From a virus, in the IMG/VR virus record IMGVR_UViG_3300021963_004898, positions 1 to 41,231 of that record: a stretch of DNA of 41,231 nucleotides, one strand, 5' to 3'. Positions 11,964 through 40,685 of the stretch are shown in pieces (the first letter of the stretch is position 1; each line of letters opens with the position of its first letter). The notes beneath the pieces were generated by a model. That model ran no database searches, was not told the DNA's origin, and saw only the letters and a list, made by a program, of their open reading frames with translations. A program made the position numbers and the translations under genes.

Positions 11964-11981
11964 TTTAATTCACCTTTCAAT

Positions 11982-14221: not shown

Positions 14222-14275
14222 AGTTATTCCTCAATTATTATATAATTATAACACAATTTATAATTAATGTTTAAT

Positions 14276-14283
14276 TATTTATA
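14276..14283 (-). promoter_or_regulatory. T4-type late promoter for the downstream sugar genes
   Basis: Exact TATAAATA on the minus strand, abutting the stop codon of the upstream glycosyltransferase (14284) and about 55 bases before the ATG at 14221. The leader between is almost pure A and T. Confidence 0.68.
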
Positions 14284-15099
14284 TTAATCAATAATTGCAT
14301 AATCTTCCCACCATTTTTGCCAATCAATGTAAGGGTCTTTTTGTGGTTCAAATTGCATATGTAACGCGAGACTTGGAATAGGACTAAATCTCATCGCGCC
14401 TCTTTCTATCCATATTTTAGCTATTGTAGATGCTTCATCAACATTTTCTTGACCAGCGGAATAATCAGGATTATACTTAGTAGCTAAGATTTCAAATAAA
14501 TTCCAATTATTTTTGACAATATGCGGACTTAAAAATAAAGTATTTGTAGTCAATAATCCAGTTTTCCAATGTCTATTAGATCCATGAGCTATTATGCTAG
14601 TCCGTGGAGGTCTATAATCATCTGGAATATCATAAGGATATAATATAATATCCCGCCCAGATAATTTAGTAAATAGATCCCATGTATCAATCATCTCTTG
14701 TAAACAAGATTGATCATGTAAAAAATCGTCTTCGACAGAATATACTAAATCAGCTTTCGAGTCTCTACATGCTTCAAATTGTTTAAGAGCCGAATAATTA
14801 AAACTATATCTTAGATTATGATCATCTCCTAAATGAACAATTTGATATGGCCATTTAGATTTATTAAATATTTTTTTTAGCTCAACTATAAATTCATCAG
14901 TAGAATGATCATCTAATATTTTAAAATTAATATCATGATTAATAACAGCATTTGCTGAATTGATAAGTGATGTCACACATCCAAGAGCAAGAGTTCTTTT
15001 ATCTTTATGGCAATATCTAGGCTCAATTTCCATATCTGTCCTACTAGTGTTATGGATATTTGTTTTGTCATGAGTCCTTAATATTATCTCTATCTTCAT
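14284..15099 (-). CDS. GT-A type glycosyltransferase
   Basis: A 271-residue single-domain enzyme. MKIEIILRTHDKTN starts the first strand; KILDDHSTDEF (about 60-70) and VYSVEDDFLHD (about 120-130) look like the nucleotide-binding and metal-binding acid sites of GT-A folds. Its C-terminal block PSLALHMQFEPQKDPYIDWQ plus KWWEDY closely parallels the end of the glycosyltransferase half of the next gene (PSLAIHFQTEHEKDPYIQWE plus DWWGKH). The two are therefore tandem paralogues, and only the neighbour carries an added methyltransferase domain. The ATG overlaps the neighbour's TGA (ATGA, 15096-15099). DNA here is noticeably more AT-rich than in the genes to the left. Confidence 0.75.
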   Translation of the reverse strand: MKIEIILRTHDKTNIHNTSRTDMEIEPRYCHKDKRTLALGCVTSLINSANAVINHDINFKILDDHSTDEFIVELKKIFNKSKWPYQIVHLGDDHNLRYSFNYSALKQFEACRDSKADLVYSVEDDFLHDQSCLQEMIDTWDLFTKLSGRDIILYPYDIPDDYRPPRTSIIAHGSNRHWKTGLLTTNTLFLSPHIVKNNWNLFEILATKYNPDYSAGQENVDEASTIAKIWIERGAMRFSPIPSLALHMQFEPQKDPYIDWQKWWEDYAIID

Positions 15100-16517: not shown

Positions 16518-16562
16518 ATTTTATTCAAATTTAGTTAGTGCTAAATTATCCTTTATTTAAAA

Positions 16563-17297
16563 TTAAACCGTGCATAATAAATTATTTTCAACTATTTCAT
16601 ACTTATAATTAAAATTATTTAAATAAGATTTTATTTCGCCAATAATTGTTTTTTTACTATTATGGTGCTCAATAAAAATTATTGGTTTATATTTTTGAAT
16701 TGTATTCTTAGCTCCAATTAAAACATCCATATCCATACCTTCGACATCGATTTTTATTAAATCTATTTTTTCTATTTCATAATATTCTATAAACCAATCT
16801 AAAGTATTTATTTGAACAATAATTTCATTTTTATTTTTTTCTTTAATTGCATCATCGATTAAACTAAAAGTGCCAAAATCATTTTTTATGAAATAATTTG
16901 GTTCATGAAATTTAATTTTGGTGTTGTCTTTACCTATTGCTAAATTATATGTGTAAACATTATATAAATTATTAATTGCTATATTACCACAAAGTATTTG
17001 AAAAACTGATCTTTGTGGTTCAAAGCAATAAATTTTTCCATTAGGAAAAGCTTTTGATAACCACGTTGTAAACGTTCCTATATTAGATCCTATATCAAAA
17101 ATTATAGGATTTTCAATATGACAAATTTTTTCATAACATTTTGAAGCTTCAATGGTACTTGTATTACCATGGTCTAATAAAAATTGTCCGTGACCCACTT
17201 GTTCATGATTACAATCAAAACGATTTATAATCATCAATCCGTGGTCACAACTTATTAATACATTTTGATAAACTTTGTCATTTACATTAAATACCAT
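16563..17297 (-). CDS. FkbM-family methyltransferase
   Basis: SAM-dependent O-methyltransferase of the FkbM type, 244 residues. Motif I is IIFDIGSNIGTFTTW (65-79); KIYCFEPQRSVFQIL follows (88-102); and the FkbM signature IDLIKIDVEGMDMDVLIGAK lies at about 178-197. FkbM relatives methylate sugars or polyketides and are common in phage and bacterial surface-glycan loci. The gene is strikingly AT-rich with long A and T runs, and the protein is rich in Ile, Asn and Lys, which suggests a different source from the left part of the cassette. It starts one base after the stop of the upstream methyltransferase. Confidence 0.87.
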   Translation of the reverse strand: MVFNVNDKVYQNVLISCDHGLMIINRFDCNHEQVGHGQFLLDHGNTSTIEASKCYEKICHIENPIIFDIGSNIGTFTTWLSKAFPNGKIYCFEPQRSVFQILCGNIAINNLYNVYTYNLAIGKDNTKIKFHEPNYFIKNDFGTFSLIDDAIKEKNKNEIIVQINTLDWFIEYYEIEKIDLIKIDVEGMDMDVLIGAKNTIQKYKPIIFIEHHNSKKTIIGEIKSYLNNFNYKYEIVENNLLCTV

Positions 17298-17298
17298 T

Positions 17299-17901
17299 TT
17301 AGTCTTTCAATTTAACAAATGCGGTCTGAAAAGAATCTGGTAAAGGTACTAATTCTATTTTGTGCCAATGCGACTGTATAAACATTTCAATGCCCATTCT
17401 CGGTGAAAGTTGTACAGGAGCGCTTCCATGTTCATCAATAAGTTTCCATCCTATAGAATCATCACACAACATTACACCACCTACTGGTAATAATCTCCAA
17501 GATAATATCATATCTTCAAGCACTGCAGCAGATGAGTGGTCACCATCAACAAAAATAAATTCAGCTTTTTCTTTTTGTTGAATTAACTCAACTAAACCTT
17601 CATAACTATATTTGTTGATGTAAGATACATTCCCAACACACTTGCTCAAATTATATTCAAATGTCCTTTTAATTGTTTTAAAATCAAAATTTGGATTATC
17701 ATTTAGTGTTGTGTGTGGATCAATGGCATATATTTTAAATTTATCATTGTGAATTCTTGCAAACTCCGAAACCCAAAATGTGGTTGTTCCTTCAAAACAA
17801 CCAATTTCTATCATCGTATTTGGAACACCATATTTTTTGAATATAAATTCAATATTAGTTCTTGTTCTTTTTTCACCCATATCAACTGTGGAAATATACA
17901 T
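17299..17901 (-). CDS. Class I methyltransferase (Methyltransf_24/CmcI-like)
   Basis: A 200-residue SAM-dependent methyltransferase when started at the ATG at 17901. A longer frame to 17982 exists, but it overlaps the upstream methyltransferase by 80 bases and adds nothing family-like; the 17901 ATG sits just after that gene's stop at 17903. Motif I is TMIEIGCFEGTTTFW (about 28-42), followed by IYAIDPHT, the acid-rich EFIFVDGDHSSAAVLEDM and VGGVMLCDDS, characteristic of the Methyltransf_24/cephalosporin-hydroxylase-like group. The His/Asp in VDGDH may bind metal. Its substrate is unknown; the context suggests a sugar. Confidence 0.82.
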   Translation of the reverse strand: MYISTVDMGEKRTRTNIEFIFKKYGVPNTMIEIGCFEGTTTFWVSEFARIHNDKFKIYAIDPHTTLNDNPNFDFKTIKRTFEYNLSKCVGNVSYINKYSYEGLVELIQQKEKAEFIFVDGDHSSAAVLEDMILSWRLLPVGGVMLCDDSIGWKLIDEHGSAPVQLSPRMGIEMFIQSHWHKIELVPLPDSFQTAFVKLKD

Positions 17902-17902
17902 A

Positions 17903-18511
17903 TCAATTATTCTTTTTATACCAATCTGAAAATCTTCCTGGTTTATGCACTCTAATGAAAATATTAACACTCCGACACACATTCGACATAGTATTTAAAT
18001 TAATATCAAGTTGTTGATGCCCTAATAATCCTTCTTTTTGTTGGTTTATCCAATATTCAAGTACATCATATGTTGTGTCATAAATTTCCAAATCCACATC
18101 ATGATATAAACCAAAAGTACTATCACTTATTTTTTTTGCAATAGATTCAAAATTTACTTTTTGATCAAACATTTTAAAAGTTTTGGCAGTCAACGTTCTA
18201 ACATGAGTGTAATCGTCCCAAAACAAATCGCATCGATGATGCGGAACATTTATAAACCATTCAGCTTGATCAGAGCTTACTCGATACATCTCTTTAATAA
18301 TATTAGTAAATACTTTTGGATCTTGTCCTAAATGTTCTAGGATATTGTTGGCAGTAATTTTTTCGAAGAAATTATCTTCGTATGGCCAAGGAGTTTTTTC
18401 AAAATCTAATACTTGATCAGGATTACATTTGGATTCTACATCTACATTCCAATGATCATTTAATTTATTAAATCCACATCCCATGTTTAATTTTTTATTT
18501 TCTGGTATCAT
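17903..18511 (-). CDS. Class I SAM methyltransferase
   Basis: A 202-residue methyltransferase. I place the start at the ATG at 18511 (MIPENKKLNMGCGFNK), which has a strong AAAGGGGA site about seven bases upstream; the longer frame to 18547 would overlap the sulfotransferase gene. Motif I is KLNMGCGFNKL, then WNVDVES and an ITANNILEHLGQDPKVF segment in the position of the Methyltransf_11 'xxVLEHL' motif. A late part, AEWFINVPHHRCDLF, matches the 'fxVPHxxs' strand common to phage and bacterial methyltransferases of this type. The target is unknown. Confidence 0.8.
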   Translation of the reverse strand: MIPENKKLNMGCGFNKLNDHWNVDVESKCNPDQVLDFEKTPWPYEDNFFEKITANNILEHLGQDPKVFTNIIKEMYRVSSDQAEWFINVPHHRCDLFWDDYTHVRTLTAKTFKMFDQKVNFESIAKKISDSTFGLYHDVDLEIYDTTYDVLEYWINQQKEGLLGHQQLDINLNTMSNVCRSVNIFIRVHKPGRFSDWYKKNN

Positions 18512-18528
18512 AATATATCCCCTTTTTA

Positions 18529-19284
18529 TTAAATCCAAGCGTCCCAAAATATTTCACGATTATATTGATCATACAAATCAAGACCAAGATATTCGACACA
18601 ATTAACGGTGTCTTTTTTTAATTCATTTCTTGTGCCCATATTAGGTCCAGTAATATTTTTAAAATCATGTTCATAAGATGGCAACTCAAAAAAGTCATAG
18701 ATACGCTTTGTTTGACTTTTTGGATTACCACAAAATCTACTATAATCAACAAATAAACATCTATCCAAAAAACCCATTGTAATACTATCTAAAAGATTTC
18801 TATGTGAAGTTCCTAAAATGCCATCTGGCCCTGCATAATAATAAGCTCGAGCCGCAATTGAATTTGTATCTCTTAGATTTTGATCAGCGTTCGATAGACT
18901 AAGAGGGTTTTCTCTCCTACTTTTTTCAAACGAAGTCAGAATTTCTGCTGGATTTCTAACACAAACCAATACTTTAATTTGTTTTTGTAGAACAGATTCT
19001 AAAGCTCCAAAAGATGGAGTCCAATTAATATTACGATCAAAAATAATTGGGCGATCATTATTAGCATAGAAACCATCAACAATACCGCTTAAAACGTTTT
19101 TCTTAATTTCAATATCTGAATCGTTACTTAAATTTTTCCATCCAAGATGCACAGCATTAAATACGGATTCTAATGATCCATTAACCTCACCACGTATTTT
19201 TGGATTTTGATTCAGTATATTTGTTATAACTGAAGAGCCTGAACGGGGTAGTCCAGTAATAAAATAAATGTTATCATGTTTCAT
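18529..19284 (-). CDS. Sulfotransferase
   Basis: Probable PAPS-dependent sulfotransferase of 251 residues. The 5'-phosphosulfate loop is FITGLPRSGSSVI (8-20), with the P-loop-like G-x-P-R-S-G-S-S. The 3'-phosphate site is VLVCVRNPAEILTSFEKSRR (105-124), with R110 and S118 in the expected places. This fits Sulfotransfer-type enzymes that sulfate sugars or proteins in bacteria. A TATAAATA lies about 22 bases before the ATG, so the gene heads a late transcript leading into the methyltransferases. Sulfation of fibre glycans or tyrosines is possible but unproven. Sulfotransferases are unusual in phage late regions. Confidence 0.85.
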   Translation of the reverse strand: MKHDNIYFITGLPRSGSSVITNILNQNPKIRGEVNGSLESVFNAVHLGWKNLSNDSDIEIKKNVLSGIVDGFYANNDRPIIFDRNINWTPSFGALESVLQKQIKVLVCVRNPAEILTSFEKSRRENPLSLSNADQNLRDTNSIAARAYYYAGPDGILGTSHRNLLDSITMGFLDRCLFVDYSRFCGNPKSQTKRIYDFFELPSYEHDFKNITGPNMGTRNELKKDTVNCVEYLGLDLYDQYNREIFWDAWI

Positions 19285-19305
19285 TCAAATCACCTTTTAA
19301 AATTT

Positions 19306-19313
19306 TATTTATA
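19306..19313 (-). promoter_or_regulatory. T4-type late promoter for the sulfotransferase
   Basis: Exact TATAAATA on the minus strand in the 49-base gap between the TPR-glycosyltransferase stop and the sulfotransferase ATG, about 22 bases before the start, with an AAGGTGA site between. Confidence 0.75.
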
Positions 19314-19333
19314 TTATAAATTAATATTAAAAA

Positions 19334-20383
19334 TCAAGCCTGTTTGAGAACTTGTTTTGGAAATAATGCCATTAAATCTTTTTTGATGGCATCAAATGGT
19401 TCGTTCCACCGACCAAATGTTTTTTGACGATAGATTGTTGTGGTATCTTGGTACCAAGGACTATGTTTATCACCACATGCCCATACATGATAAGGTAAAA
19501 GTGGTACAACTACCCATGTTGGTTTACCCATAGCGGAAGCAATGTGTGCTATGCTGGTACAAGATGTAATAACCAAATCTAAGTTTTCAATACAAGCCAC
19601 TGTATCTTCCCAAGAAATGATTAAATTTTTTAAATCTGTAATTTCTTCCGATAATTCTCTAGTATCATTATCTCTTTGTAAACTGTAAAATTGTATATGA
19701 TCAAAATCTTTATGTAAATCAATTAAATTTTCTGGTGGAAAAAGACGGAACTGCTGGTGCTCAAACTTAGGATTTCCACTCCAACGTATACCAATTTTTG
19801 GTTTATCTCCAGCATCTTGCAATATATTTTTCCAAACTTCAACACTTTCATTTAAAGCTGAAATATACGGTTTATTTGGAAGGTCGTCAAAAGAATGTCC
19901 AAAAAGCCAGCTACAACTAAATCCTGGTATCCAAAAATCATGATATGTACTTGATACTTCATTTAGAGTAATACACCTTTCAACGCCAACAATTCTAGAA
20001 AATAATGAGTGTAATGTACGATCACAACATAAAATACATTTGCCACCTCTTTTCCAAACTTCTGTTGCAAATCTAACAGAAATAATGTTATCACCATATC
20101 CAGCTTCAAGATTAATAATTACAGTTTTTCCTTTTAAATCGCTTTGGTCCCAAATTGGTTTTGTTGTATTGATTTTAGGAGATCCATAAACATTAAGTGC
20201 TCGACCATATTCAAGGCATTGAAATCCTTCTTGTAATTTTTTTTGATTGATGAGAAACCATCCACGATTAAATTTACTTCGTGGATCTTTAGGATCTAAA
20301 ACTTCTAATTGTTCTGCTATTTTCCAAGCTTCTTCAAATCTACCGCGAATCATTAAGTTTAGTTGTTGATCAATTAAATGCAT
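19334..20383 (-). CDS. TPR-containing GT-B glycosyltransferase (GT9/GT41-like)
   Basis: A 349-residue protein. The first 65 residues look like one or two TPR helices (GRFEEAWKIAEQLEVLDPKD, then FNRGWFLINQKKLQEGFQCL). The rest resembles the glycosyltransferase part of TPR-O-GlcNAc-transferase-like and GT9 proteins: VIINLEAGYGDNIISVRF (88-105), KIGIRWSGNPKFEHQQFRLF (about 196-215) and LVITSCTSIAHIASAMGKPT (about 275-294), where the Ser/Thr/His contact the nucleotide sugar. Members of this type can glycosylate proteins on Ser/Thr, which fits the many Thr/Ser-rich collagen-like fibres nearby. It has its own late promoter about 26 bases before the ATG. Confidence 0.8.
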   Translation of the reverse strand: MHLIDQQLNLMIRGRFEEAWKIAEQLEVLDPKDPRSKFNRGWFLINQKKLQEGFQCLEYGRALNVYGSPKINTTKPIWDQSDLKGKTVIINLEAGYGDNIISVRFATEVWKRGGKCILCCDRTLHSLFSRIVGVERCITLNEVSSTYHDFWIPGFSCSWLFGHSFDDLPNKPYISALNESVEVWKNILQDAGDKPKIGIRWSGNPKFEHQQFRLFPPENLIDLHKDFDHIQFYSLQRDNDTRELSEEITDLKNLIISWEDTVACIENLDLVITSCTSIAHIASAMGKPTWVVVPLLPYHVWACGDKHSPWYQDTTTIYRQKTFGRWNEPFDAIKKDLMALFPKQVLKQA

Positions 20384-20453: not shown

Positions 20454-21410
20454 TTAAAACGTAATAGCTACACCATGAACACCACCAACTGCTACAGCAG
20501 TCCATGAACTAGTTCCTATTTGTACTGGTGAAGATTTACTAACGTTAGTACCATCACCTAGTTGGCCTGTATTATTATTCCCCCATGCAAATAAAGCACC
20601 ATCGGATCGAATAGCATACACTTGGTTAAACCCACTACTCACAGAAGTCCATGAGCTGGTTCCTACTTGCACAGGTGAAGATTTACTAACGTTAGTACCA
20701 TCACCTAAAGGATTTCCGCCACCATTGAAGGTTATATTTTGACCCCATGCAAATAGAGCACCACCAGATCGAATAGCGTGACTCCAATTACCAGTGCTGG
20801 AGCCAGAAACTCGAGCTAACGTCCATGAACTAGTTCCTACTTGTACTGGTGAAGATTTATCAATGGTAGTACCGTCACCTAGTTGGCCACTATTGTTGCG
20901 ACCCCATGAAAATAGAGCTCCACCGGATCGAATGGCAAGAGTATGACCCGCTCCACTAGTACTCACAGAAGTCCATGAGCTGGTTCCTACTTGTACTGGT
21001 GAAGATTTACTAATGGTAGTACCATCACCTAGTTGACCAAGAGTATTACTATTACCCCATGAAAATAGAGCTCCATCTGATCGAATGGCCATCCAGTGGT
21101 TTCCTGTTCCAGTATAAAGTGGCTTCGTACTGATCGCAGTCCATGAGCTGGTTCCTACTTGTACTGGTGAGGCTGAAGTAGCTGGAAGTCCAGCGCCTGT
21201 AAGACCTGTATTTCCCCATACAAACATGGCTCCATCTGATCGAATGGCCATAGCGTTCGACCAGCCAATTTGTATTGCAGTCCAACTTTTTATTTCAGTA
21301 TTACCAAGAGATGTTCCTAGTTGGCCAAAGGAATTAGCTCCCCATGTATATAAAAATTTCTTACTTGTGGGAGCTGCAGCTTTTGAAAAAAATTGTTCTA
21401 TGAATAACAT
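20454..21410 (-). CDS. RCC1-repeat beta-propeller protein, putative adhesin
   Basis: A 318-residue protein made almost wholly of RCC1-like repeats. About six units carry the pattern WGxNxxGQLGDGTxxxKSSPVQ-VGTSSW-T-x-AIRSDGALF. The first (WGANSFGQLGTSLGN) begins at about residue 23 after the short N-terminal segment MLFIEQFFSKAAAPTSKKF, and the last ends at the C-terminus (VAVGGVHGVAITF). RCC1 repeats fold into a beta-propeller, usually seven blades, so the propeller here may be closed with a partial blade or by oligomerisation. Several repeats are nearly identical in DNA, implying recent duplication. Its place beside fibre genes suggests a binding head at a fibre tip, but no enzyme motif is visible. 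Confidence 0.85.
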   Translation of the reverse strand: MLFIEQFFSKAAAPTSKKFLYTWGANSFGQLGTSLGNTEIKSWTAIQIGWSNAMAIRSDGAMFVWGNTGLTGAGLPATSASPVQVGTSSWTAISTKPLYTGTGNHWMAIRSDGALFSWGNSNTLGQLGDGTTISKSSPVQVGTSSWTSVSTSGAGHTLAIRSGGALFSWGRNNSGQLGDGTTIDKSSPVQVGTSSWTLARVSGSSTGNWSHAIRSGGALFAWGQNITFNGGGNPLGDGTNVSKSSPVQVGTSSWTSVSSGFNQVYAIRSDGALFAWGNNNTGQLGDGTNVSKSSPVQIGTSSWTAVAVGGVHGVAITF

Positions 21411-31202: not shown

Positions 31203-31607
31203 TTAAACATCTATCATAAACTCCTTTATAAAATACTTCTTGACATCAGGAACCATTCCTTTAGTTTGATCAAACTTCCATCCGCCTATATAACTTAATA
31301 TTTGATTATATGTGATAATGTCTTCATCATGTGTTACGAAATATGGGTCATTGCCAAATAGTAAATCTATATCATTTAAGTAGTCTACAGGATTTCCTCC
31401 AAACTCTTCAGAAAGCCATCTAGCATAACATATAGCAACCATATAACTTTTAGATGGATAGATCCAACCAATGTCTTTTTCGGTAAAATACCGAACAGCA
31501 TCTGTCACTACATTATCAGTGATCTCTATATTCTTATCATTTAAGTCATCATCATGGACAATGTTTAGTCTATGATAGAGCTCTTGTCTTATCTTCCAAT
31601 CTTCCAT
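31203..31607 (-). CDS. Unknown protein at the end of the radical-SAM operon
   Basis: A 134-residue protein if begun at the ATG at 31607 (MEDWKIRQELYHRLN); a TTG at 31622 with AAAGGA just upstream is an alternative that adds five residues. It is acidic (NIVHDDDLNDKNIEITDN), has a hydrophobic/aromatic segment SYMVAICYARWLSEEFGG, and ends VPDVKKYFIKEFMIDV. No catalytic motif or cysteine pair is visible. Its 5' end overlaps the 3' end of the radical-SAM gene upstream, so the two are probably made together; a small partner or substrate-presenting protein is one possibility, but I do not recognise the family. Confidence 0.72.
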   Translation of the reverse strand: MEDWKIRQELYHRLNIVHDDDLNDKNIEITDNVVTDAVRYFTEKDIGWIYPSKSYMVAICYARWLSEEFGGNPVDYLNDIDLLFGNDPYFVTHDEDIITYNQILSYIGGWKFDQTKGMVPDVKKYFIKEFMIDV

Positions 31608-32508
31608 GTTTGTACCAATCAATTAGTCCTTTATACCCATTACATCCATTATCCAAATCTTTAACATATCGATAATGTTCTGTTAAACACGTGCCATAAT
31701 AATCACATGACTTACATACATTACTTACGTTCTTGTTAGGTTCATTTAATGCCCATTCTTTATACTCTTGTATTGAGTCTAAAGACTTAAAATATTCTTT
31801 ATCATTTAGGTCAAACTCAAGGACTGCAAATTGTCCAGTTGGAGTAATATATACATGATCATTACTAAATGCATTACGAGACCCATCTAGAGTAGCTTGG
31901 ATGTTCTTTTCATTGACAAACTCAAACCTGATTTGTATGTCACTATCAATCCATTTTTGCACAAACAATTCAAAGTCTTTATGACTGACCGAGTCACAGT
32001 TTGCTTGGTTTATGCTGTATGGTTTTATCTCTACAGAACTTAAATTGCTTAATAAGTTTAATTGAGATATCATCTCTCTTATATCTTTATTTATTAACTT
32101 TTTACTAGCTAATATTAATATAGAGAATGGTTTATTGAGCGCAAACATATTATCCCATACACGATCATGCTGTTCTCTACAATCAAAGTCATAGCTAACA
32201 GATACGTATAAATCTGGGTTGGTTATAACTGTATTGACCATACTTAGATTAGTGATTATGTTTATGTCATCAATGCCTCGCGACTTAACTATGTCGCATA
32301 ACTCTTCTACATAATCTTCAGGTAGTAATCCTATCTCACCACCATATAAGTCAATACCATGGATCTCATCGACAGATAACACTTCATCAAGTCTATTAGC
32401 CAATACATTTAAGTCTAATAGTGTTTTATCATTTAGTTGTTCTTTTGTTAAGTAACAGAAGTCACATCTAAAGTTACAATAATACCACGGATTAATTGAT
32501 ATAATCAT
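31570..32508 (-). CDS. Radical-SAM protein with short auxiliary Cys cluster (C)
   Basis: A 312-residue radical-SAM enzyme. The 4Fe-4S motif CNFRCDFC is at C11, C15 and C18, directly after a MIISINPWYY strand; DLYGGEIGLLP (about 54-64) supplies the GGE motif that contacts SAM. The C-terminal VCKSCDYYGTCLTEHYRYVK with a later DNGC looks like a reduced SPASM/twitch segment that could hold one auxiliary cluster. Such enzymes often modify peptides or small proteins. The ATG has a GAGAGAA just upstream and lies within the end of the previous radical-SAM gene (17-base overlap). Confidence 0.87.
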   Translation of the reverse strand: MIISINPWYYCNFRCDFCYLTKEQLNDKTLLDLNVLANRLDEVLSVDEIHGIDLYGGEIGLLPEDYVEELCDIVKSRGIDDINIITNLSMVNTVITNPDLYVSVSYDFDCREQHDRVWDNMFALNKPFSILILASKKLINKDIREMISQLNLLSNLSSVEIKPYSINQANCDSVSHKDFELFVQKWIDSDIQIRFEFVNEKNIQATLDGSRNAFSNDHVYITPTGQFAVLEFDLNDKEYFKSLDSIQEYKEWALNEPNKNVSNVCKSCDYYGTCLTEHYRYVKDLDNGCNGYKGLIDWYKHGRLEDKTRALS

Positions 32509-33565
32509 ATTCTCTCTGATATGGAGTAGATTCTAACTCTAATCCATTAGCTTTGATTATATCAGGAGCAAGTTGCTTCATCTTATAGCAATGCTCTTCA
32601 ACTAAGTTATGATTCTTAAGGTCTGCGATAGTCTTCTTACACCCATTACATATATCAAACATAGGACAAATATAACATGATTGTTTTAAACTTTGCAGTT
32701 CATGTTGAAACTTAATAGGATGTATCTTTTCACCAGTCATTTCTTTATTAAAGTCTATTGGATATTGTCTATCATCTCCAAATGCACCACAAGAGTAGTA
32801 GTCTCCAGATGGTTGCAAAGTCCTAATATTACTATCACAGTCTCTATTCTGAGGGCATGTAGTACCTTCACCACGAAGGCGTTTAACCATCTGTTTAGTA
32901 TTATATTCCCATTCTGTTAAGCCTCTTTTCCATATCTCAACATATATCTCATACATATCTGCTAATAAGTATGGCTTACCTTCCTGACCCATGATTATGT
33001 TCTTGAACTTGACCGGCGGGCCTGATGAAAATGCATAGTTAAGTTTACACTCCACACCCATCTTCTTAGCTAACTCGACGTTTTTTATAGCATCGTGTTC
33101 ATTTTCTTCAGTGATGACTGAAATAAAATCTGGTCGATATCCACAATATTCAAGCATTGAGTTTGAAACGTTCCAAAAGTCTTCTTCACTAAATTCAGAT
33201 AAATCTCCTTTGAGTCTTCCACCACCATATTGAAATGATGTGGTTACTCCAACTCTAGGATGATTGAATAGTTTTTTCCATCTGTCAGGATTTTTGTAGA
33301 ATGGCCAAAGATTTGTTGTCAATGATATAGTTGCTTGAGAATGAATTTCGTTAAGGTGATTAATTATTTTCCAATAATAATCAGGATCCATCATTAGCGG
33401 ATCTCCACCATTAACTATAATAGTATTTGTTTCTGGAAATCTTTTTAGAAAGTCAAAGATGTATTGATGATCAAGCTCAGCAGTTTTGTCTTCAGTAATA
33501 TGTGTACTTGAACAAAACGTACACTTGAAATTACATTTTTCAGTTGGTTTAATTATTAATTCCAT
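32492..33565 (-). CDS. Radical-SAM/SPASM protein (B)
   Basis: A 357-residue radical-SAM enzyme with CNFKCTFC at C11, C15 and C18, then IIVNGGDPLMMDPDYYW (the GGD/GGE SAM-contact motif). The C-terminal third carries a SPASM-like set of cysteines: GTTCPQNRDCDSN, DYYSCGAFG, then CYICPMFDICNGCKKT and a last EEHCYKMK. This is the arrangement expected for two auxiliary 4Fe-4S clusters in peptide-modifying enzymes such as anaerobic sulfatase-maturating enzymes and sactipeptide synthases. It starts at ATG 33565, overlapping the upstream radical-SAM gene by ten bases. The substrate is not known. Confidence 0.9.
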   Translation of the reverse strand: MELIIKPTEKCNFKCTFCSSTHITEDKTAELDHQYIFDFLKRFPETNTIIVNGGDPLMMDPDYYWKIINHLNEIHSQATISLTTNLWPFYKNPDRWKKLFNHPRVGVTTSFQYGGGRLKGDLSEFSEEDFWNVSNSMLEYCGYRPDFISVITEENEHDAIKNVELAKKMGVECKLNYAFSSGPPVKFKNIIMGQEGKPYLLADMYEIYVEIWKRGLTEWEYNTKQMVKRLRGEGTTCPQNRDCDSNIRTLQPSGDYYSCGAFGDDRQYPIDFNKEMTGEKIHPIKFQHELQSLKQSCYICPMFDICNGCKKTIADLKNHNLVEEHCYKMKQLAPDIIKANGLELESTPYQREYDYIN

Positions 33566-34557
33566 TTATTATCCACATAATCATATACCTGTTTTAACCA
33601 ACACTCATCTTGTGTTCTAGCGTCTTTAATGTGATTGCTTAAAAAACATCCTAATGAACATCGATTAAAGTGTTCACACTCTAAACATTTATAATCGTCA
33701 AACCATTGTTGTTCTAAAGTTTTCTTAGAAGGTATAAGTTTAATTGGTATAACGTCTTTTAGTAGTATATCGCATCTACCAAAATCTGAATTAGGCATGA
33801 TTGTATATGTATCCATGCATGACATGCTTCTTTTGATGGTCGATTCTAAATCTTTAAATGGATTACAATTAGGCCTATTGTTATACATATGAATCATAAA
33901 GTCTCTAAGCTCAACGTCTTTAGGTATCAATATATCCATATGTTTTTCTGGAGTATAGTAGTCAAAATATATACTGAAATTGTCGTATAGATAATCAAAG
34001 AATGGAACGTTATCATCAATAAATCTAGTTATATTCTGCTTTGTCATAATAACATTTACAGATTTGATATATCGCCTAAATGTTTTCACGTTTCTTTTAA
34101 ACACTTCAAAAGTGTCAACGTTAAATCTTCCAGACGGGTCATAACTTGTGTACAAACTTGTCTTTGATTTTGCTAAGAATTTCTTAACTCTATCAACTTT
34201 TGTAAATATGAAATTTGTTGTGAACTGAACACTCACTTCAATATTATTATCTGAGCAATATTCTCTAATAGAATTTACTAGTATTAAATAGTCATCATAT
34301 ACTGAGTCTGGCAATTTATCAGAAAATACTTCCCCACCCATTATATTGATAGTGAATGTAGTTTTACCTCTGGTTTGTAATTCAGCAATTGCTAGTTTGA
34401 TAGGTTCAAGTTTTTCTTTGATTGTGTCCACACCTACCATACTTGTGTGGTCTTGATTACAGAATAAACAAGATATATCACAAAACTCAAATAAAGTTAC
34501 AATGATTTCACCAGTTTCGGTCCGTTTTATATTACTAATTACTTTTTCAGCAATCAT
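33556..34557 (-). CDS. Radical-SAM/SPASM protein (A)
   Basis: A 333-residue radical-SAM enzyme. The start is taken as the ATG at 34557, whose ATGA overlaps the TGA of the oxygenase gene upstream; a TTG 12 bases earlier is less likely. The cluster motif CDISCLFC lies at C26, C30 and C33 and is followed by NIMGGEVFSD (the GGE motif). The C-terminal part holds CLECEHFNRCSLGCFLSNHI and a final DECW, plus earlier SCMDTYTIMPNSDFGRCD, giving a SPASM-like set. It is one of three consecutive radical-SAM genes differing greatly in sequence, so they probably act on different sites or substrates rather than being simple duplicates. Confidence 0.88.
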   Translation of the reverse strand: MIAEKVISNIKRTETGEIIVTLFEFCDISCLFCNQDHTSMVGVDTIKEKLEPIKLAIAELQTRGKTTFTINIMGGEVFSDKLPDSVYDDYLILVNSIREYCSDNNIEVSVQFTTNFIFTKVDRVKKFLAKSKTSLYTSYDPSGRFNVDTFEVFKRNVKTFRRYIKSVNVIMTKQNITRFIDDNVPFFDYLYDNFSIYFDYYTPEKHMDILIPKDVELRDFMIHMYNNRPNCNPFKDLESTIKRSMSCMDTYTIMPNSDFGRCDILLKDVIPIKLIPSKKTLEQQWFDDYKCLECEHFNRCSLGCFLSNHIKDARTQDECWLKQVYDYVDNKWN

Positions 34558-35189
34558 TTTATTTTCCAATTATAAGAGAAAGCAAACGTATATCTATTTT
34601 TCTCTTTCTTCATTCCTTCAACTTTATGCATGAATAAAGGATTATCATTATTAATAATTATCATTGTTGCTGTATTCGGAAGTACTTTAGTTGTATATAC
34701 GTCTTTGTCAAATAGTTTTTTTGTTACAGTTAAACTACCTCCCCATTCTTCTTTCCATTCTTCGTCTGCAAGATAGCATAACACAAGAGTATTTGTTCCA
34801 TCTATGACATCTTGATGAAAATCATCATCTTCAGCACCATTCCATAAATTTATTGCTGAAATTTCATGTATAGGCCTGTTTATACGTAGAAAATCAAAAA
34901 TAGATGAGCATATTAAATCATTTGCCAGGACTCTTAATGAGTATGGACTATTTTGTAAGTTTAATTTATTGGCTTGATATTCGTATTCTTGATGAGCATC
35001 ATGACCTTGAATATCCACTGGTTGTCCCTCTATGTACCAATCAGGAACAGTTTGAAATACAGATTTGCTCTTAATCCAATTTGTAGTATATATTTCAGCC
35101 CAAAAGAAAAGAAGTAAATCTTCTGGTATTTTTGTAATTATAAAACCTTTTTCATAATAATCAAATCCAAGATTTGCTGATTTCATCAT
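34554..35189 (-). CDS. 2OG/Fe(II) oxygenase, prolyl-hydroxylase type (2)
   Basis: Probable 2-oxoglutarate- and iron-dependent hydroxylase. Numbering from the ATG at 35189 (211 residues; a second ATG follows at 35186, and an in-frame TTG at 35201 is less likely), the iron ligands appear as DDFHQDV (H125, D127) and FMHKVEG (H188), with R199 in KNRYTFAFSYNW as the 2OG carboxylate anchor. The strands between (NTLVLCYLADEEW, WGGSLTV, TATMIIINNDNPL) follow the jelly-roll of the P4H-like family. These enzymes hydroxylate Pro, Lys, Asn, Asp or His in proteins. The gene overlaps the paralogous oxygenase upstream and couples to a radical-SAM gene downstream. Confidence 0.83.
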   Translation of the reverse strand: MMKSANLGFDYYEKGFIITKIPEDLLLFFWAEIYTTNWIKSKSVFQTVPDWYIEGQPVDIQGHDAHQEYEYQANKLNLQNSPYSLRVLANDLICSSIFDFLRINRPIHEISAINLWNGAEDDDFHQDVIDGTNTLVLCYLADEEWKEEWGGSLTVTKKLFDKDVYTTKVLPNTATMIIINNDNPLFMHKVEGMKKEKNRYTFAFSYNWKIK

Positions 35190-35679
35190 GATTCCAATCA
35201 ACTAAAAAATCAAAACATGCCACAATTCGTCGATGTTCCGTGTGTTCGACTTTGTGTAAAATATTTGGATTATCATTCAATAGTGCAACCAATTCTCCAT
35301 ATCTAGGATAAATTACATTATCTTGAATATGAAGTCCACCTTCTTTAATTAAACTCATGTCATTAAAATATAATAGAAAGAATACATTTGATGGTTCATC
35401 AGAATCTGAATGGAATTGGCAAAACTTAGAATCTTTAGGTAAGTTTCCTTTTATGTCAGACTCTAATAATTTATATGAGTGCGCGTATGGCTCAACATAA
35501 GTTAAAGCTATTTGATTATGAATAGCATTTAATAATATCTTAACATACTCTTGATTATTAGTAGGCAATCTACTAATATGTGATGTTTTTGGGTCAAACT
35601 CTAAATCATCAGTCTGTAGTTGGTCTGCTAAATCTGTTGCTAACCAATTGCAGTATCCATTTTTAAACAGACTATACAT
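35161..35679 (-). CDS. 2OG/Fe(II) oxygenase, prolyl-hydroxylase type (1)
   Basis: A 172-residue protein with the complete ligand set of a 2OG/Fe(II) oxygenase: CQFHSDSD (H90, D92), then NILHKVEH (H142) and HRRIVACFDFLVD (R150 or R151 as the 2OG anchor). Strands NVFFLLYFNDM, EGGLHIQ and GELVALLNDNPN sit between in the usual order, including the EGG turn typical of prolyl-4-hydroxylase-like proteins. It starts at ATG 35679, immediately after the stop of the unknown gene upstream with no spare base. Its similarity to the next gene is clear in the DNPxxxHKVE segment, so the pair probably arose by duplication and diverged. Confidence 0.85.
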   Translation of the reverse strand: MYSLFKNGYCNWLATDLADQLQTDDLEFDPKTSHISRLPTNNQEYVKILLNAIHNQIALTYVEPYAHSYKLLESDIKGNLPKDSKFCQFHSDSDEPSNVFFLLYFNDMSLIKEGGLHIQDNVIYPRYGELVALLNDNPNILHKVEHTEHRRIVACFDFLVDWNHDEISKSWI

Positions 35680-36762
35680 TTATCTAATTAAATATGCTTT
35701 CAAGTTGTCTGGCGTTTTTAAGTTTTGTAATACAAAGTCAATGAAGTATATATTAATATTTTCCAAATCTATTGTTGAGCAGAAAGGTTCATCAGCATCA
35801 CTCTCGTTTAGAATGAACGTATCTAAGTCAGAATCGGACATCTCGTCTTTGCGTACATATTTAACATAAGATTGGAAATAGTTTTTATATTCCAATTCTG
35901 GATAGACTTTGTTGATAAATAAATCCAGTTCATCCAAATCGGAATCTGTGATAGATTTCAAATCAATATTAGATGATTTACCAAACCTAGGGGTTCCAAT
36001 TTGTTTTAGGAAGCTAGAATCATTGACAATCTTAAGTGCTGGGTCAACACTGTATGCGTCGATATTATCAAAAGTATTTAATTTTAATCCAAGTTTAGTA
36101 GCAAAACCTTTACGTAAAAGCTTTCTATAAGTTGTATATTTCGCTTCAATAATAGTTTGTTCGATTTGGCGTTTAACTAATTTTTGAATAGCAGTTTTTA
36201 ATTTTTCTTTTTGAGTCTTATTATTTACATATGATGATAATAAGAACTCAATGCTTAGATTGTAATCAACTTCAGTTAAAATGCTTTTTGCTTGACTTTC
36301 GGCAACTGTAGTTTTACTAAACACAGATTCCCATTCTTGTAATGACGGTTCAAAAGTATCGAAAGCATCAAAGTCTTTTGTTTCCAAACTACCTACAAGT
36401 TTTTCTCTATCAAAATGTGCTTTGATAATTTTATAAGATGATACTGTATTGATATTTGCAAAAATAGCTTTAAACCAAGCACATACAATAGTCAAAAATG
36501 CTTGTTTATCAACATATATTACGAAAGGTTTATCGTTGGTTGTATTTTTTTGTGAGATGACTTTCAATAAAGAAAAGATATTTTCATACTCTTTACCTTT
36601 ACCAACAATCTTAGTAATATCATCTACATGATGAAGAACATCACCAATAGATACTTTACTGCCATCTGGCATACCAACATCTTTTGAAATAACTAATCTG
36701 TCATTTTTGACATCAATCAATGAGTCTATTTGAATATATGTTTTTTTAAACAGGTGTAACAT
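35680..36762 (-). CDS. Unknown 360-residue protein of the enzyme operon
   Basis: I do not recognise this family. The protein begins MLHLFKKTYIQIDSLIDVKN, has hydrophobic segments FVIYVDKQAFLTIVCAWFKA and LSIEFLLSSYV, a basic helical region KLKTAIQKLVKRQIEQTIIE and a strongly acidic C-terminal part (SDLDELDLFINKVYPELE, then DEMSDSDLDTFILNESDADE). No nuclease, kinase or transferase motif is visible. The ATG has AAGGAG about seven bases upstream and overlaps the end of the previous gene by 17 bases. Placement between the (CHxx)3 protein and the oxygenases suggests a role in presenting or assembling that protein, or simply a tail component. Confidence 0.75.
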   Translation of the reverse strand: MLHLFKKTYIQIDSLIDVKNDRLVISKDVGMPDGSKVSIGDVLHHVDDITKIVGKGKEYENIFSLLKVISQKNTTNDKPFVIYVDKQAFLTIVCAWFKAIFANINTVSSYKIIKAHFDREKLVGSLETKDFDAFDTFEPSLQEWESVFSKTTVAESQAKSILTEVDYNLSIEFLLSSYVNNKTQKEKLKTAIQKLVKRQIEQTIIEAKYTTYRKLLRKGFATKLGLKLNTFDNIDAYSVDPALKIVNDSSFLKQIGTPRFGKSSNIDLKSITDSDLDELDLFINKVYPELEYKNYFQSYVKYVRKDEMSDSDLDTFILNESDADEPFCSTIDLENINIYFIDFVLQNLKTPDNLKAYLIR

Positions 36763-37474
36763 TAGCTAACTCCTTTAATTCTTTAATGGAATTTTGTTTT
36801 GCTTGAGTGTATTCTTCGTTTTTAAATAATTGCTCTGCTATGCCAACAGTCAATAGATACATGGGATTATTATTATTAGCCCAATAAGAATAAAGATTTT
36901 TACCTTTAAACATATATTCACTAAAATATTTAGAATAATATTTCAGATTCGTTTGGTCAATAGCCCCATATAATGTGTAAAAGAACTCGTGTTTTAATAA
37001 GCTCACAAAATTAACTCCTTCGGTGCTGTCCGTACTATTTTCAGGAAATTGCTTAACAAAATCTTTTATTTCAGGAACATCAATAATAAACATATTATAT
37101 AAAGTTAAACTATCAAGTTTTGAAACCCAACTTTCAATTAATTCTTTATTATCAATAATGAATTTCTGATATGTGATAGCATCAGTCATATGCTTATATT
37201 CAAGCAACAATTTGATAGTTTCAAATTCTAAAGATTTGATATTCACTAAACTAGGACTAATTAAATAGTCTCTTAATAGTTCCAATTTTAATTTTTCATC
37301 AACATTAGATAAATCTATATCTGCTGGAATATCTAAATTACTTAGATAAGTTAATAATTTTGTACCAGTAAGTGTGCTGTTTACATAATCAATTTCATAT
37401 GTAACTGATTTATCTGTAAAATATTGCTTAAGATTGTCAATTGATATAGGTGCAGTTGTTCTCACTAAACTCAT
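36746..37474 (-). CDS. Unknown 242-residue protein next to the (CHxx)3 protein
   Basis: Not recognised. It begins MSLVRTTAPISIDNLKQYFT and appears largely helical, with many Leu/Ile-spaced stretches (DEKLKLELLRDYLISPSLVN, FETIKLLLEYKHMTDAITYQ) and an aromatic section FFYTLYGAIDQTNLKYYSKY. It has no cysteines. The ATG lies six bases after the stop of the (CHxx)3 gene, so the two should be co-translated. It could be a chaperone, a leader-binding partner or a structural protein; the sequence does not decide. Confidence 0.75.
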   Translation of the reverse strand: MSLVRTTAPISIDNLKQYFTDKSVTYEIDYVNSTLTGTKLLTYLSNLDIPADIDLSNVDEKLKLELLRDYLISPSLVNIKSLEFETIKLLLEYKHMTDAITYQKFIIDNKELIESWVSKLDSLTLYNMFIIDVPEIKDFVKQFPENSTDSTEGVNFVSLLKHEFFYTLYGAIDQTNLKYYSKYFSEYMFKGKNLYSYWANNNNPMYLLTVGIAEQLFKNEEYTQAKQNSIKELKELANVTPV

Positions 37475-37480
37475 AATAAA

Positions 37481-38053
37481 TTATCTTCTTCCTCTGGATC
37501 CATGACAGTTGCTATGGCACGAAGCATGACATACATTCACTTGTAGAGTTACTGTATTATCTCTAGCTGAATTATATGATGTTCTTAAATTATTAAAAAA
37601 GGTTTCTAATCCCGCACCGGTAGCAACACTTCCTGATACGACATCTGACGCGCCAGCGCCTATAGATTGGCGATATGCTGTCGTAAAATGTGCTTTTGCT
37701 GTTGTATCAAATACTATGCCGGCAGTGGGTCTTGTCCCAGTATTACCACCGCCCCCATCTACAAATAATATGGCTCTCAAATTTCTAATATTAGTATAAG
37801 TAGCTGTCTCGGTCAATAATGTATTATAGATGTTAGCTGCATTAATAACGTTACCTATAGCGTCTATATTGCCGCCAGATATTCCAATAGATTTCCCAGC
37901 AGTAGTATCACCAAACTCTGCACCATATATCCATTCTGCAAATGGATATGCATCAGTACCCCATGCAATACTAGCATTTGCTGTAGCTACCACATAGTCT
38001 GCAAACCTATCGACTATGTTTTGCGGATTAATTGGATTATTTAAAGTTGCCAT
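37481..38053 (-). CDS. Tail-type protein with C-terminal (CHxx)3-RGRR motif
   Basis: A 190-residue protein I cannot name. The body (MATLNNPINPQNIVDRFADY, GKSIGISGGNIDAIGNVINA, TATYTNIRNLRAILFVDGGG) is Ala/Thr/Gly/Asn-rich like phage structural proteins. The last 16 residues (175-190) are CHASCHSNCHGSRGRR: three CHxx units in register, then a basic end. These hold all three cysteines of the protein and three of its four histidines (the other is H122 or nearby). The ATG has AAAGGAAT about six bases upstream, and a TATAAATA lies 17 bases before it. A radical-SAM/SPASM gene ends just upstream, and three more radical-SAM and two oxygenase genes follow in the same operon, so the tail may be a modified peptide or a metal site. 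Confidence 0.83.
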   Translation of the reverse strand: MATLNNPINPQNIVDRFADYVVATANASIAWGTDAYPFAEWIYGAEFGDTTAGKSIGISGGNIDAIGNVINAANIYNTLLTETATYTNIRNLRAILFVDGGGGNTGTRPTAGIVFDTTAKAHFTTAYRQSIGAGASDVVSGSVATGAGLETFFNNLRTSYNSARDNTVTLQVNVCHASCHSNCHGSRGRR

Positions 38054-38069
38054 TGTTATTCCTTTATAT

Positions 38070-38077
38070 TATTTATA
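38070..38077 (-). promoter_or_regulatory. T4-type late promoter for the (CHxx)3 operon
   Basis: Exact TATAAATA on the minus strand, overlapping the stop codon of the upstream radical-SAM gene and ending 16 bases before the ATG at 38053, with AAAGGAAT between. It makes the (CHxx)3 protein the first gene of a late transcript. Confidence 0.75.
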
Positions 38078-39116
38078 CTTGCATAATAGAGAATACTTTT
38101 CTCTGAGTCTTTGCAAGTTCTCTCATTAAACTTTTTGGCGCGCCACATATATCACCTTCCCAGGCTAATTGATGGCAGTCTCCACCACAATATTGAAATA
38201 CATCACATGAATAACATATATCATTTCGTGAAGCTTCACATGCCATGTTTTCTAATCTTATTGGGCTATTTATAAGATCTTTTATGGTGTCTTCTATGTG
38301 TCCAAACTGGAACTCTGGAGCAGAATTTGGGCATCCAGATATGGTTCCATCAGCATTTAGTGTGAATATCTTCTCTTCACAGTCTCTACAGAAAGTGCCG
38401 CCTTTATTGAATCCAGTCTCAAATTTAGAATATACTACTTCTAAGAAGTCATTATCAAACCAATTTCTTGTTCCATATTGTACCGACTGTTCGTGCATCT
38501 TAAGGAACCATGCATCTTGTTCGATGTTAGATGGAAATATCTCAGGAAACTTCTTAGCGCTCCCATTATTAGTCAGTCTCTCAAATGATACTTCTTGAAC
38601 TCCTAACATTCTTATCCATCTCAGCAATACTATTGGATCTATAGCTATAGTATCTTTTGTGACACTTATAAACAACCTAATTGTTATGCCTTCATCTAAT
38701 AGTATCTTTACATTATTGCGCCAAAGATTTACTTGTTTCTTATTATCAAATCTTATCTTTGGATCCCATGAAGTCCCAATGCGTCCTTCAAATGGTCCTT
38801 TAATTAAATCTATATGTTCTTGGTATAACTTAAATACTAAATTAGTGGTTGCTCCCCATGTCATGTTAGTAAACGAAGTCTTACACTTATCCCATACCTC
38901 ATACATCTGGGATGCTGGCACTAAGAATGGTTCACCACCATGAAACTCACAATGAGCTGTATCAGTATTTGTTGCTTGTTCTGAGAACCTATGCAACCAA
39001 TCTATGACTTTATTATGATCCCAATATACCTTTGCCCCATTTATACCATTAGTAAAACAATGGCGACAGTTTAAGTTACATGTCTCAGTCGTCTTTAGGT
39101 AAAACATCCAATTCAT
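38073..39116 (-). CDS. Radical-SAM/SPASM protein (D), upstream of the (CHxx)3 gene
   Basis: The most canonical of the four radical-SAM proteins, 347 residues. The cluster motif CNLNCRHC is at C13, C17 and C20; CEFHGGEPFLVP gives GGEP; and IGTSWDPKIRFDNKK is the strand seen in peptide-modifying members. The SPASM domain is complete: GTFCRDCEEKIFTLNADGTI, then SGCPNSAPEFQFGHIED, and finally ICYSCDVFQYCGGDCHQLAW with GDICGAPK, enough for two auxiliary clusters. Enzymes of this layout include anSME, sactionine synthases and PqqE. The ATG at 39116 overlaps the cupin-type gene by 32 bases (a second ATG is at 39107). It ends 20 bases before the (CHxx)3 gene. Confidence 0.93.
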   Translation of the reverse strand: MNWMFYLKTTETCNLNCRHCFTNGINGAKVYWDHNKVIDWLHRFSEQATNTDTAHCEFHGGEPFLVPASQMYEVWDKCKTSFTNMTWGATTNLVFKLYQEHIDLIKGPFEGRIGTSWDPKIRFDNKKQVNLWRNNVKILLDEGITIRLFISVTKDTIAIDPIVLLRWIRMLGVQEVSFERLTNNGSAKKFPEIFPSNIEQDAWFLKMHEQSVQYGTRNWFDNDFLEVVYSKFETGFNKGGTFCRDCEEKIFTLNADGTISGCPNSAPEFQFGHIEDTIKDLINSPIRLENMACEASRNDICYSCDVFQYCGGDCHQLAWEGDICGAPKSLMRELAKTQRKVFSIMQV

Positions 39117-39600
39117 TACAAGATTTATCCTTCAAATAGTTTTCTAAACCAAAGCTTAACGTTAATGCTGCGCATTCATTTAATGCTTGATGTGGAGTAT
39201 TAGCTGGGATGTGAACACGTTCTCCAGCTTCTAATACTATATATGTGCCATCCACCATCATGGTTTTCTTGCCTTCACAGCAAACTATGATTACGTCATC
39301 TGGATCGGTATGCGTATCAAATGATGGGGAGTTTTCTTGAGCAATGAATGCATGACATGTCACAGGGCCATGATGATCATATTCATCAGCCAATTCACTA
39401 CACTTATCCCAAATTTCTTTAGAATATCGCTCCATCCCTTCGACCTTAATAGTCTTAGGCTCATCATCATATAGTTCACTAGAATGATTAAGGGGGATTT
39501 GCATCCCCCTGTCATTTATTATTGAAACTAAATTTTGCTTGTATGACAAAGGGTTGTGAATGAATTCAACAACTTCATTAAGTGTTATAATATAAAGCAC
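39085..39600 (-). CDS. JmjC/cupin-type 2OG/Fe(II) oxygenase-like protein
   Basis: A 171-residue cupin-fold protein. The likely iron ligands are FDTHTDPDD (H97, D99) and IPANTPHQAL (H137), spaced as in cupin_4/JmjC hydroxylases; DVIIVCCEGKKTMMVDGT and YIVLEAGERVHIPA are the strands in between. Some members of this superfamily hydroxylate His, Asn or Arg in proteins; other cupins do not use 2OG at all, so the chemistry is uncertain. The start is probably GTG at 39600, overlapping the tail-fibre gene upstream by 16 bases; the ribosome binding site is weak, so coupling is likely. It overlaps the radical-SAM gene downstream. Confidence 0.75.
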   Translation of the reverse strand: MLYIITLNEVVEFIHNPLSYKQNLVSIINDRGMQIPLNHSSELYDDEPKTIKVEGMERYSKEIWDKCSELADEYDHHGPVTCHAFIAQENSPSFDTHTDPDDVIIVCCEGKKTMMVDGTYIVLEAGERVHIPANTPHQALNECAALTLSFGLENYLKDKSCNELDVLPKDD

Positions 39601-40685
39601 TCCACTAATTTTTCTTCATGTGTTAAATCTGTCTTTAATGCAATCGCAATCGCATTAACTTGACCTAATATAGCTTGACCATTTGTGGCTGCACAAACAG
39701 ATTCTCCCTTTCTAATAGGACCGACTACTCGAACAGGCACTCTTCCTTTGATAGCAACTGCTTGACCTGATGATTCTGAATTCATTAAGAATGCTGGATT
39801 CTCTGATATAACTCCTATAGCATGTTGTCCTATATAATCTGATGCTGCGCATTCAGAATCTTCACTCTGTGAAACTACCATAATTGTTCCTACCGGATAT
39901 AGTTTATCAGTAGTATATTTTTCTGCTAAGTCTGCATATCTTGCAGATGTTGCTGTGCCCTTAAATACATTTGTTGTTAAGTCTCCAAAAGCATCACGAA
40001 CCGCTACAGTATTTTCTGTAGCGCTCATTGATGATGTGTATCCGTCTAATAAGTCTGCATCTAATCCAGATCCGGATCCATCATTACCGGAATGCCATGG
40101 AATATAACCTAAAGCATTAGTAACATCTGTGCCGCTTAATGATGTACCAACAGTAGCTCTACCTTTAGCATCGACAGTAATCTTAGTATAAGTTCCAGCT
40201 GCTACACCAGTGTTAGCTAATGTAAAAGCTCCAGTCACGTTTGCTGATCCATTAAATGACGTAGTCCATGAACCATCACCAGTAATAGTAAACGTTCTAA
40301 TATTAGCAAGAGTTCCAGCTGAACCGCTAGTATTACCTGTTACATTTCCAGTTAAGTTTCCCGTTACGTTGCCAGTTAAGTTACCTGTTACATTGCCGAT
40401 TAATGTTGCAGTAATAGTACCTGCAGCAAAGTTACCTGAAGAATTCCTAGATACTAAACTATTACCAACATTTGTTGTAGCTGGACTTAAACCGTCAACT
40501 AAGTCAGCATCTAAACCAGAGCTTGCACCATCAACAGTTAATAGTTTTGAAAGTACATCTGCTGCGGTATATGATGTAGTAGGTACTTTTTCTCCAAGTT
40601 CAGTATTTAATGCAGTAAAATTTGCATCTACCTCGGTTAGTGTTAGAGGAGATCCCTTAATGCTTCGTAGTGTTATGCTTGCCAT
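39585..40685 (-). CDS. Tail fibre protein with GNVTGNLTGN repeats
   Basis: A 366-residue fibre protein. The N-terminal part starts MASITLRSIKGSPLTLTEVD and continues ANFTALNTELGEK, a head often seen in phage fibres. Two SGLDADLxDG motifs (about 57-66 and 206-215) are also typical, as is the Asn/Thr/Gly repeat GNVTGNLTGNVTGN (about 98-120). The C-terminal domain from ARYADLAEKYTTDKLYPVGT to AIKGRVPVRVVGPIRKGE matches a widespread phage fibre end related to autoproteolytic Peptidase_G2-type chaperone domains. The ATG at 40685 has AAGGATAT just upstream. Two other tail genes flank it on the right. Confidence 0.86.
   Translation of the reverse strand: MASITLRSIKGSPLTLTEVDANFTALNTELGEKVPTTSYTAADVLSKLLTVDGASSGLDADLVDGLSPATTNVGNSLVSRNSSGNFAAGTITATLIGNVTGNLTGNVTGNLTGNVTGNTSGSAGTLANIRTFTITGDGSWTTSFNGSANVTGAFTLANTGVAAGTYTKITVDAKGRATVGTSLSGTDVTNALGYIPWHSGNDGSGSGLDADLLDGYTSSMSATENTVAVRDAFGDLTTNVFKGTATSARYADLAEKYTTDKLYPVGTIMVVSQSEDSECAASDYIGQHAIGVISENPAFLMNSESSGQAVAIKGRVPVRVVGPIRKGESVCAATNGQAILGQVNAIAIALKTDLTHEEKLVECFIL

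Follow-up and report, generated by a model that had tools for sequence, protein, structure and literature searches.

The analysed stretch (the window) spans the 41,231 nucleotides of one 41-kb viral record in IMG/VR, whose translations read as T4-like genes and collagen-like fibres. A compact cassette lies on the minus strand, in which each gene overlaps the preceding gene or starts no more than 19 nt from it. The genes and features are given below in the order of the strand that encodes them.

39585..40685, minus strand: tail-fibre-type protein upstream of the cupin gene; its C-terminal domain is present in most cassette loci
39085..39600, minus strand: cupin/JmjC_2-like predicted Fe(II)/2OG hydroxylase (PF08007), first cassette gene
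38073..39116, minus strand: rSAM1, radical-SAM/SPASM enzyme encoded immediately before T (CxxxCxxC, SPASM Cys pattern, TIGR04085)
37481..38053, minus strand: T, the tail-bearing protein, 190 aa, with a predicted folded body and flexible C-terminal tail (AF2)
37484..37531, minus strand: the 16-residue C-terminal tail CHASCHSNCHGSRGRR, residues 175-190 of T
36746..37474, minus strand: D, conserved protein (phrog_20767) that in most loci follows T directly
35680..36762, minus strand: u, conserved 360-aa protein (iterated HMM, 91 loci)
35161..35679, minus strand: OG1, predicted Fe(II)/2OG oxygenase (HxD..H motif; no Pfam match)
34554..35201, minus strand: OG2, predicted Fe(II)/2OG oxygenase (PF13661/PF13640 above cut-off)
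33556..34569, minus strand: rSAM2 (phrog_1802), with a SPASM-type Cys pattern
32492..33565, minus strand: rSAM3 (phrog_1802), 56-62% identical to jumbo-phage enzymes
31570..32508, minus strand: rSAM4 (phrog_1802)
31203..31622, minus strand: S, small conserved protein of 139 aa, last cassette gene, with relatives in 71 loci that include jumbo phages and Bdellovibrionota

An earlier note on this DNA had described the reading frame of T, and its coordinates, strand, length, tail and placement of Cys and His were confirmed. The note had also put T at the head of an operon with two hydroxylases. T proved to be the third gene, preceded by the cupin/JmjC-like gene and rSAM1, and the window encodes three predicted Fe(II)/2OG oxygenases, one of them JmjC-like, together with four radical-SAM enzymes. 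Elsewhere in the window, genes resembling glycosyltransferases, methyltransferases and sulfotransferases, assigned from sequence only, form a run between baseplate-type and fibre genes (10284-20383), and a WGxNxxGQLGDGT-repeat protein resembling an RCC1-type beta-propeller lies beside the collagen-like fibre genes (20454-21410).

In the translation, every one of the three Cys of T and three of its four His are in the tail. The tail consensus was C-H-[AST]-S-C-H-x-[SN]-C-H-x-[SA]-R-G-R-R, with an H-x-S/N unit occurring three times in the standard tail. The codons for the invariant tail residues varied synonymously (TGT/TGC, CAT/CAC and AGA/CGN), and the constraint therefore acts on the protein. 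In alignment A4 of T relatives, 10 of the 13 invariant columns fell in the tail, and P37, R90 and T118 were the only invariant residues of the body. The tail sits exactly at the C-terminus of proteins of about 120-370 aa whose bodies belong to unrelated groups; blastp sorted 132 bodies stripped of their tails into two main clusters with 90 and 36 members, plus one pair and four singles. In the second body group (the cluster of 36), many of the loci encode two tail proteins in tandem. One protein (L073) has a four-unit tail. A search with T of the window (P0001), in which five of the six peptide patterns were drawn from the body and not the tail, matched 33 viral loci, and wherever the gene was present it ended in the tail. 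A DNA pattern scan of viral contigs, conditioned on the tail pattern itself, yielded at least 124 reading frames that stop exactly 16 residues past the first Cys of the pattern. A chance pattern was considered and rejected, the non-tail matches of the scan being mostly out-of-frame or low-complexity runs.

The AF2 model of T, built from an alignment from which the phage-collection rows had been removed, had a mean pLDDT of 85 and a pLDDT of about 51 over the last 10 residues, and this low confidence at the tail end is consistent with disorder. Fold matches of T were the Atu_ph07 T and a 178-aa phage protein of the same length as the pPa_SNUABM_DT01 T. Three large proteins of Myoviridae sp. ctijX18 (500-660 aa; BFVD A0A8S5USJ7, A0A8S5USJ8 and A0A8S5USV2) also have the T fold. 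No PDB fold match was obtained with the model of T or with that of D (pLDDT 84); Pfam, NCBIfam and PHROGs gave no function for either protein, and T itself has no S74 domain. T is far larger than classical RiPP precursors.

The tail was found on surface-type proteins of at least hundreds of bacterial viruses and some predatory bacteria, beside the same set of radical-SAM and iron-oxygenase genes. A sample of 80 loci was anchored on rSAM1 and chosen blind to the tail; in five of them the sequence stops short of a complete next gene, and the tail was encoded directly downstream in all 75 loci with enough DNA. The phage collection searched numbers 50,697 records and does not include Ralstonia phages RSF1 and RP31. 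Exactly the same seven of these records, and no others, were matched by T, by rSAM1, by rSAM3 and by D. The seven records, in which tblastn with T showed distant relatives, were pPa_SNUABM_DT01 (Pseudomonas), Atu_ph07 (Agrobacterium, two records), Burkholderia FLC6, FLC8 and SURPRISE13, and Sinorhizobium Phosso. The tail is thus tied to radical-SAM genes, as the earlier note had expected. Tails standing without such neighbours, the case it had named as contrary, were sought among 19 tail records with no rSAM gene in their first stretch; PF04055 genes were present elsewhere in the whole record in 18 of them, compared with one of 14 control contigs, and the one record without a PF04055 gene is an 18-kb fragment.

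Gene order was also kept. The order (fibre-)cupin-rSAM1-T-D-u-rSAM2/oxygenases-rSAM3-rSAM4 recurred in about 100 contigs, from marine T4-like viruses to jumbo phages, with genes taken as simple longest-ORF calls in this comparison. In the named jumbo phages, T, an rSAM gene and a cupin or small unnamed gene are adjacent. In the rSAM3 tree the bacterial rows formed one clade (99/95) and the jumbo phages sat at two separate positions within the viruses, a pattern consistent with movement of the module between phages. Two contigs binned into Euryarchaeota and Rickettsiales MAGs (L165 and L237) carry the viral cassette beside virus-type genes; they look like phage contigs, probably are, and were excluded from the cellular count.

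The radical-SAM cluster motif CxxxCxxC of rSAM1 (C13, C17 and C20) was invariant in eight diverse aligned sequences, as was the SPASM Cys pattern, scored as G-x4-C, CX2CX5CX3C and C. rSAM1 scored above the cut-off of TIGR04085 (SPASM; 33.6 bits, cut-off 27), SPASM enzymes were among its closest structures, and the SPASM Cys pattern was present in 96 of 99 rSAM2 sequences. The earlier claim of a flanking SPASM gene with three more thus holds for the four radical-SAM genes and for the pattern in rSAM1 and rSAM2, whereas the CX2CX5CX3C half had no match in rSAM3 or rSAM4. The best profile matches of the rSAM enzymes were peptide maturases, with scores far under every curated maturase cut-off; the best NCBIfam match of rSAM1 was PapB (9.3e-12; 44.8 bits against a cut-off of 340), and the SCIFF maturase model gave 19.2 bits against 425. 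Across phages and bacteria, rSAM1 was 41-66% identical, and T was 20-30% identical at a similar distance. The cupin scored above the cut-off of PF08007 (JmjC_2; 30.9 bits, cut-off 22) and its metal triad H97, D99 and H137 was invariant in 103 distinct sequences. HxD..H was kept in 117 of 117 distinct OG1 relatives, and OG2 matched the RiPP oxygenase YhhC weakly (21.6 bits, cut-off 150). Searches of Pfam and NCBIfam gave no match to an RRE/PqqD-type recognition domain for T, D or u, and Pfam, NCBIfam and PHROGs profiles recognised neither a protease nor an exporter among the genes of the window cassette.

Some cassettes contain further radical-SAM genes. The tandem-T class of viruses carries extra genes with CxxxCxGCF-type motifs, which bring the radical-SAM genes to eight or nine per locus (L296:8890-16238; L032:10458-17865; L101; L117; L138). 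A B12-binding radical-SAM gene was found by Pfam match at L294:3571-5310, with genes alike by eye at L297:9417-11252 and L165:3321-5030, and would suggest an additional methylation-type step in these cassettes.

A tail-fibre domain was encoded upstream of T in 150 loci, mostly three genes away and directly upstream in the tandem class. It was missing from 25 loci with more than 5 kb of upstream DNA, among them jumbo phage L035 and the bacterial loci. The domain was rejected as part of an obligate unit, since phages with no cassette close by also encode it, Campylobacter CP220 for example. Counting the coding sequences of Atu_ph07 puts T at CDS 170, a numbering verified against the tail sheath (132/140) and the lysin (141). 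The MS-based virion proteins of this phage cluster in CDS 31-76, 170-215 and 284-329 (PMC6102473). T lies at the edge of the second cluster, which indirectly suggests that it is a virion protein, with the reservation that each cluster is 46 CDS long and its edges may be conventional. Taken as a whole, the gene context supports T as a candidate tail-fibre-associated virion protein.

The tail and cassette were also found in contigs of Bdellovibrionota, including Bacteriovorax MedPE-SWde. Housekeeping genes surround these cassettes, which are therefore chromosomal and not phage contigs, and two of them (L293 and L295) keep the order rSAM1-T-D. Among 129 genomes of the class of G034, rSAM1 was present in 13, the GRHWV protein described below in 15 and the exact tail in five. 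The bacterial tail variants were CHGNFPPPCHGSRGRR, CHTNVPTPPPCHASRGRR, CHSNHCSHSNHGSRGRR and CHSSHSSHSSHSSRGRR, and the G145 tail has four HSS units. When twelve tails were aligned, variants included, the first Cys-His, the last His and RGRR were invariant, and the number and spacing of Cys varied. In CHGNFPPPCHGSRGRR, CHSNHCSHSNHGSRGRR and CHSSHSSHSSHSSRGRR, Cys is down to one or two, whereas the His-x-Ser/Asn units and the C-terminal RGRR persist. The emphasis that had been placed on Cys was therefore given up, and a Cys-only reading of the tail was rejected.

Near the bacterial cassettes lies a prepilin/Peptidase_S74 protein (L288:16955-18704, L293:12654-14323 and L295:4628-6528). It is paired with a conserved protein ending in GRHWVKVK, which stood beside the cassette in five genomes examined. 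The surface of Bdellovibrio carries phage-like S74 fibres that are used in prey handling (PMC10769870). In a separate arrangement, at L389:8838-19994 (G086), a GRHWV fibre-type protein adjoins a different radical-SAM-like array and a Cys-rich protein ending in CNCNAVCNCHNNCGCHY; the latter is possibly a second kind of modified substrate in Bdellovibrionota.

The best reading of this arrangement is a putative RiPP-like system in which several enzymes modify the C-terminal tail of T, a candidate virion protein from the tail-fibre locus. The conservation of the tail, its strict link with rSAM1, D and rSAM3, the gene order, the enzyme families and the natural tail variants were observed; we infer the modification, its chemistry and a surface role for the tail. 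The tail is quite likely a built-in target, both modification site and recognition sequence, of a dedicated protein-modification cassette. T would be produced from the tail-fibre gene block, and rSAM1 would bind its C-terminal tail by way of the constant RGRR end as the likely handle. Radical C-H chemistry by rSAM1 would then fall on the Cys/His/Ser units, and cross-links such as Cys thioethers would be the simplest outcome. The JmjC-like cupin and the 2OG oxygenases could then hydroxylate residues, with His or Arg as obvious candidates, rSAM2-4 could contribute further steps, and D and u might serve as carrier, chaperone or partner proteins. The JmjC family includes known His and Arg hydroxylases. 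Because the cupin beside rSAM1 is JmjC-like, His and Arg are as likely targets as Cys. The modified flexible tail, ending a folded domain, would be carried on the particle near the tail fibres and aid host contact, and predatory Bdellovibrionota may apply a related modification to a pilus or fibre. Some of the cassette enzymes may act on fibre proteins and not on T. The fuller picture, that phages and predatory bacteria share a radical-chemistry pathway building a cross-linked, hydroxylated C-terminal group on a fibre-associated protein, a virus-encoded RiPP-like system on the virion and a shared attachment device, is put forward tentatively, at somewhat below an even chance.

Four other explanations were weighed. 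The tail could be only a recognition tag, a C-terminal follower, with the enzymes modifying the body of T or a neighbouring fibre protein. RGRR, the most constant part, has no obvious rSAM chemistry, and the variation of Cys number and spacing in bacterial tails also agrees with a tag. However, bodies with almost no invariant residues, drawn from unrelated groups under one tail, offer no common target, and the Cys-His periodicity within the viral tail is itself conserved, which makes this explanation unlikely. The tail could instead be a metal site with Cys/His ligands for Zn, Fe or Cu, perhaps shared between subunits at the fibre tip, and the radical-SAM genes would have some other purpose. 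The tip of the T4 long tail fibre contains His-coordinated iron, and the tail presents six potential ligands in a regular cycle. The metal site would leave unexplained both the strict link with rSAM1, rSAM3 and D and the variant tails, in which Cys is down to one or two and the spacing is changed, and we regard it as improbable. Quite improbable as well is a true RiPP, in which T would be an oversized leader and its tail the core, set free by cleavage to act as a signal, an antibiotic or a superinfection factor. A core at the C-terminus and maturase genes nearby are what one expects of a RiPP, and no annotation speaks against it, but the window cassette has no recognised protease or exporter, the body of T is a predicted folded domain, and T lies in the fibre block, near MS-defined virion proteins. 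Finally, phage genomes are mosaic, but an ordinary redox-active or disulfide-forming Cys tail, or a chance neighbourhood, is already strongly disfavoured by co-occurrence in 75 of 75 loci and seven of seven records over marine viruses, several jumbo-phage lineages and bacterial chromosomes.

If the tail is indeed the target of the cassette, phages use radical-SAM chemistry to modify their own particles, and the four to nine radical-SAM genes of these jumbo and marine phages, hitherto listed as unexplained enzymes, would be accounted for. The Bdellovibrionota cassette beside a prepilin/S74-fibre gene would then link phage attachment and bacterial predation via protein chemistry. The constant company of tail and enzymes in bacterial viruses and predatory bacteria points to a so far unrecognised chemical modification of the structures with which they touch their prey. 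The cultured phages FLC6, S13, Atu_ph07 and pPa_SNUABM_DT01 carry the cassette, so the question is directly testable.

A literature search that included the tail string found no description of the tail or of a matching system, and publications on FLC6, S13 and RP31 list the enzymes only. The mosaic adhesive trimer (MAT) fibres of Bdellovibrio have S74 chaperone domains, like the S74/prepilin protein beside the bacterial cassettes; the available text on these fibres describes no radical-SAM modification, T protein or tail (PMC10769870). Among radical-SAM systems, QhpD makes intra-protein thioethers in the dehydrogenase subunit QhpC (PMC8172795) and is alike in that a protein subunit, not a short peptide, is cross-linked. 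The QhpC links join Cys to Asp/Glu (PMC8172795), whereas the tail described here has no conserved Asp/Glu and stands at the extreme C-terminus. The ranthipeptide system PapB/PapA (PMC9413430) supplies the best NCBIfam match of rSAM1, below cut-off, and its CX3D/E pattern is absent from the tail. TvgB is an example of repeated motifs modified by a single rSAM enzyme (PMC9062424). With the His-Xaa-Ser (Hxs) systems, the cassette has in common a His-Xaa-Ser repeat substrate and several adjacent radical-SAM genes. HxsA models matched the bacterial variant CHSSHSSHSSHSSRGRR on the repeat only (16 bits, cut-off 121.65) and left T of the window unmatched; HxsB (23.2 against 370 bits) and HxsC (32.9 against 267.9) did not reach their cut-offs, and HxsD had no match in the cassette profile search. 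In contrast to Hxs, this system has a Cys before the His in every standard unit, a constant RGRR end, Fe/2OG oxygenases, D and u, and a mainly viral occurrence. By analogy, the logic of the cassette most closely resembles that of the His-Xaa-Ser systems.
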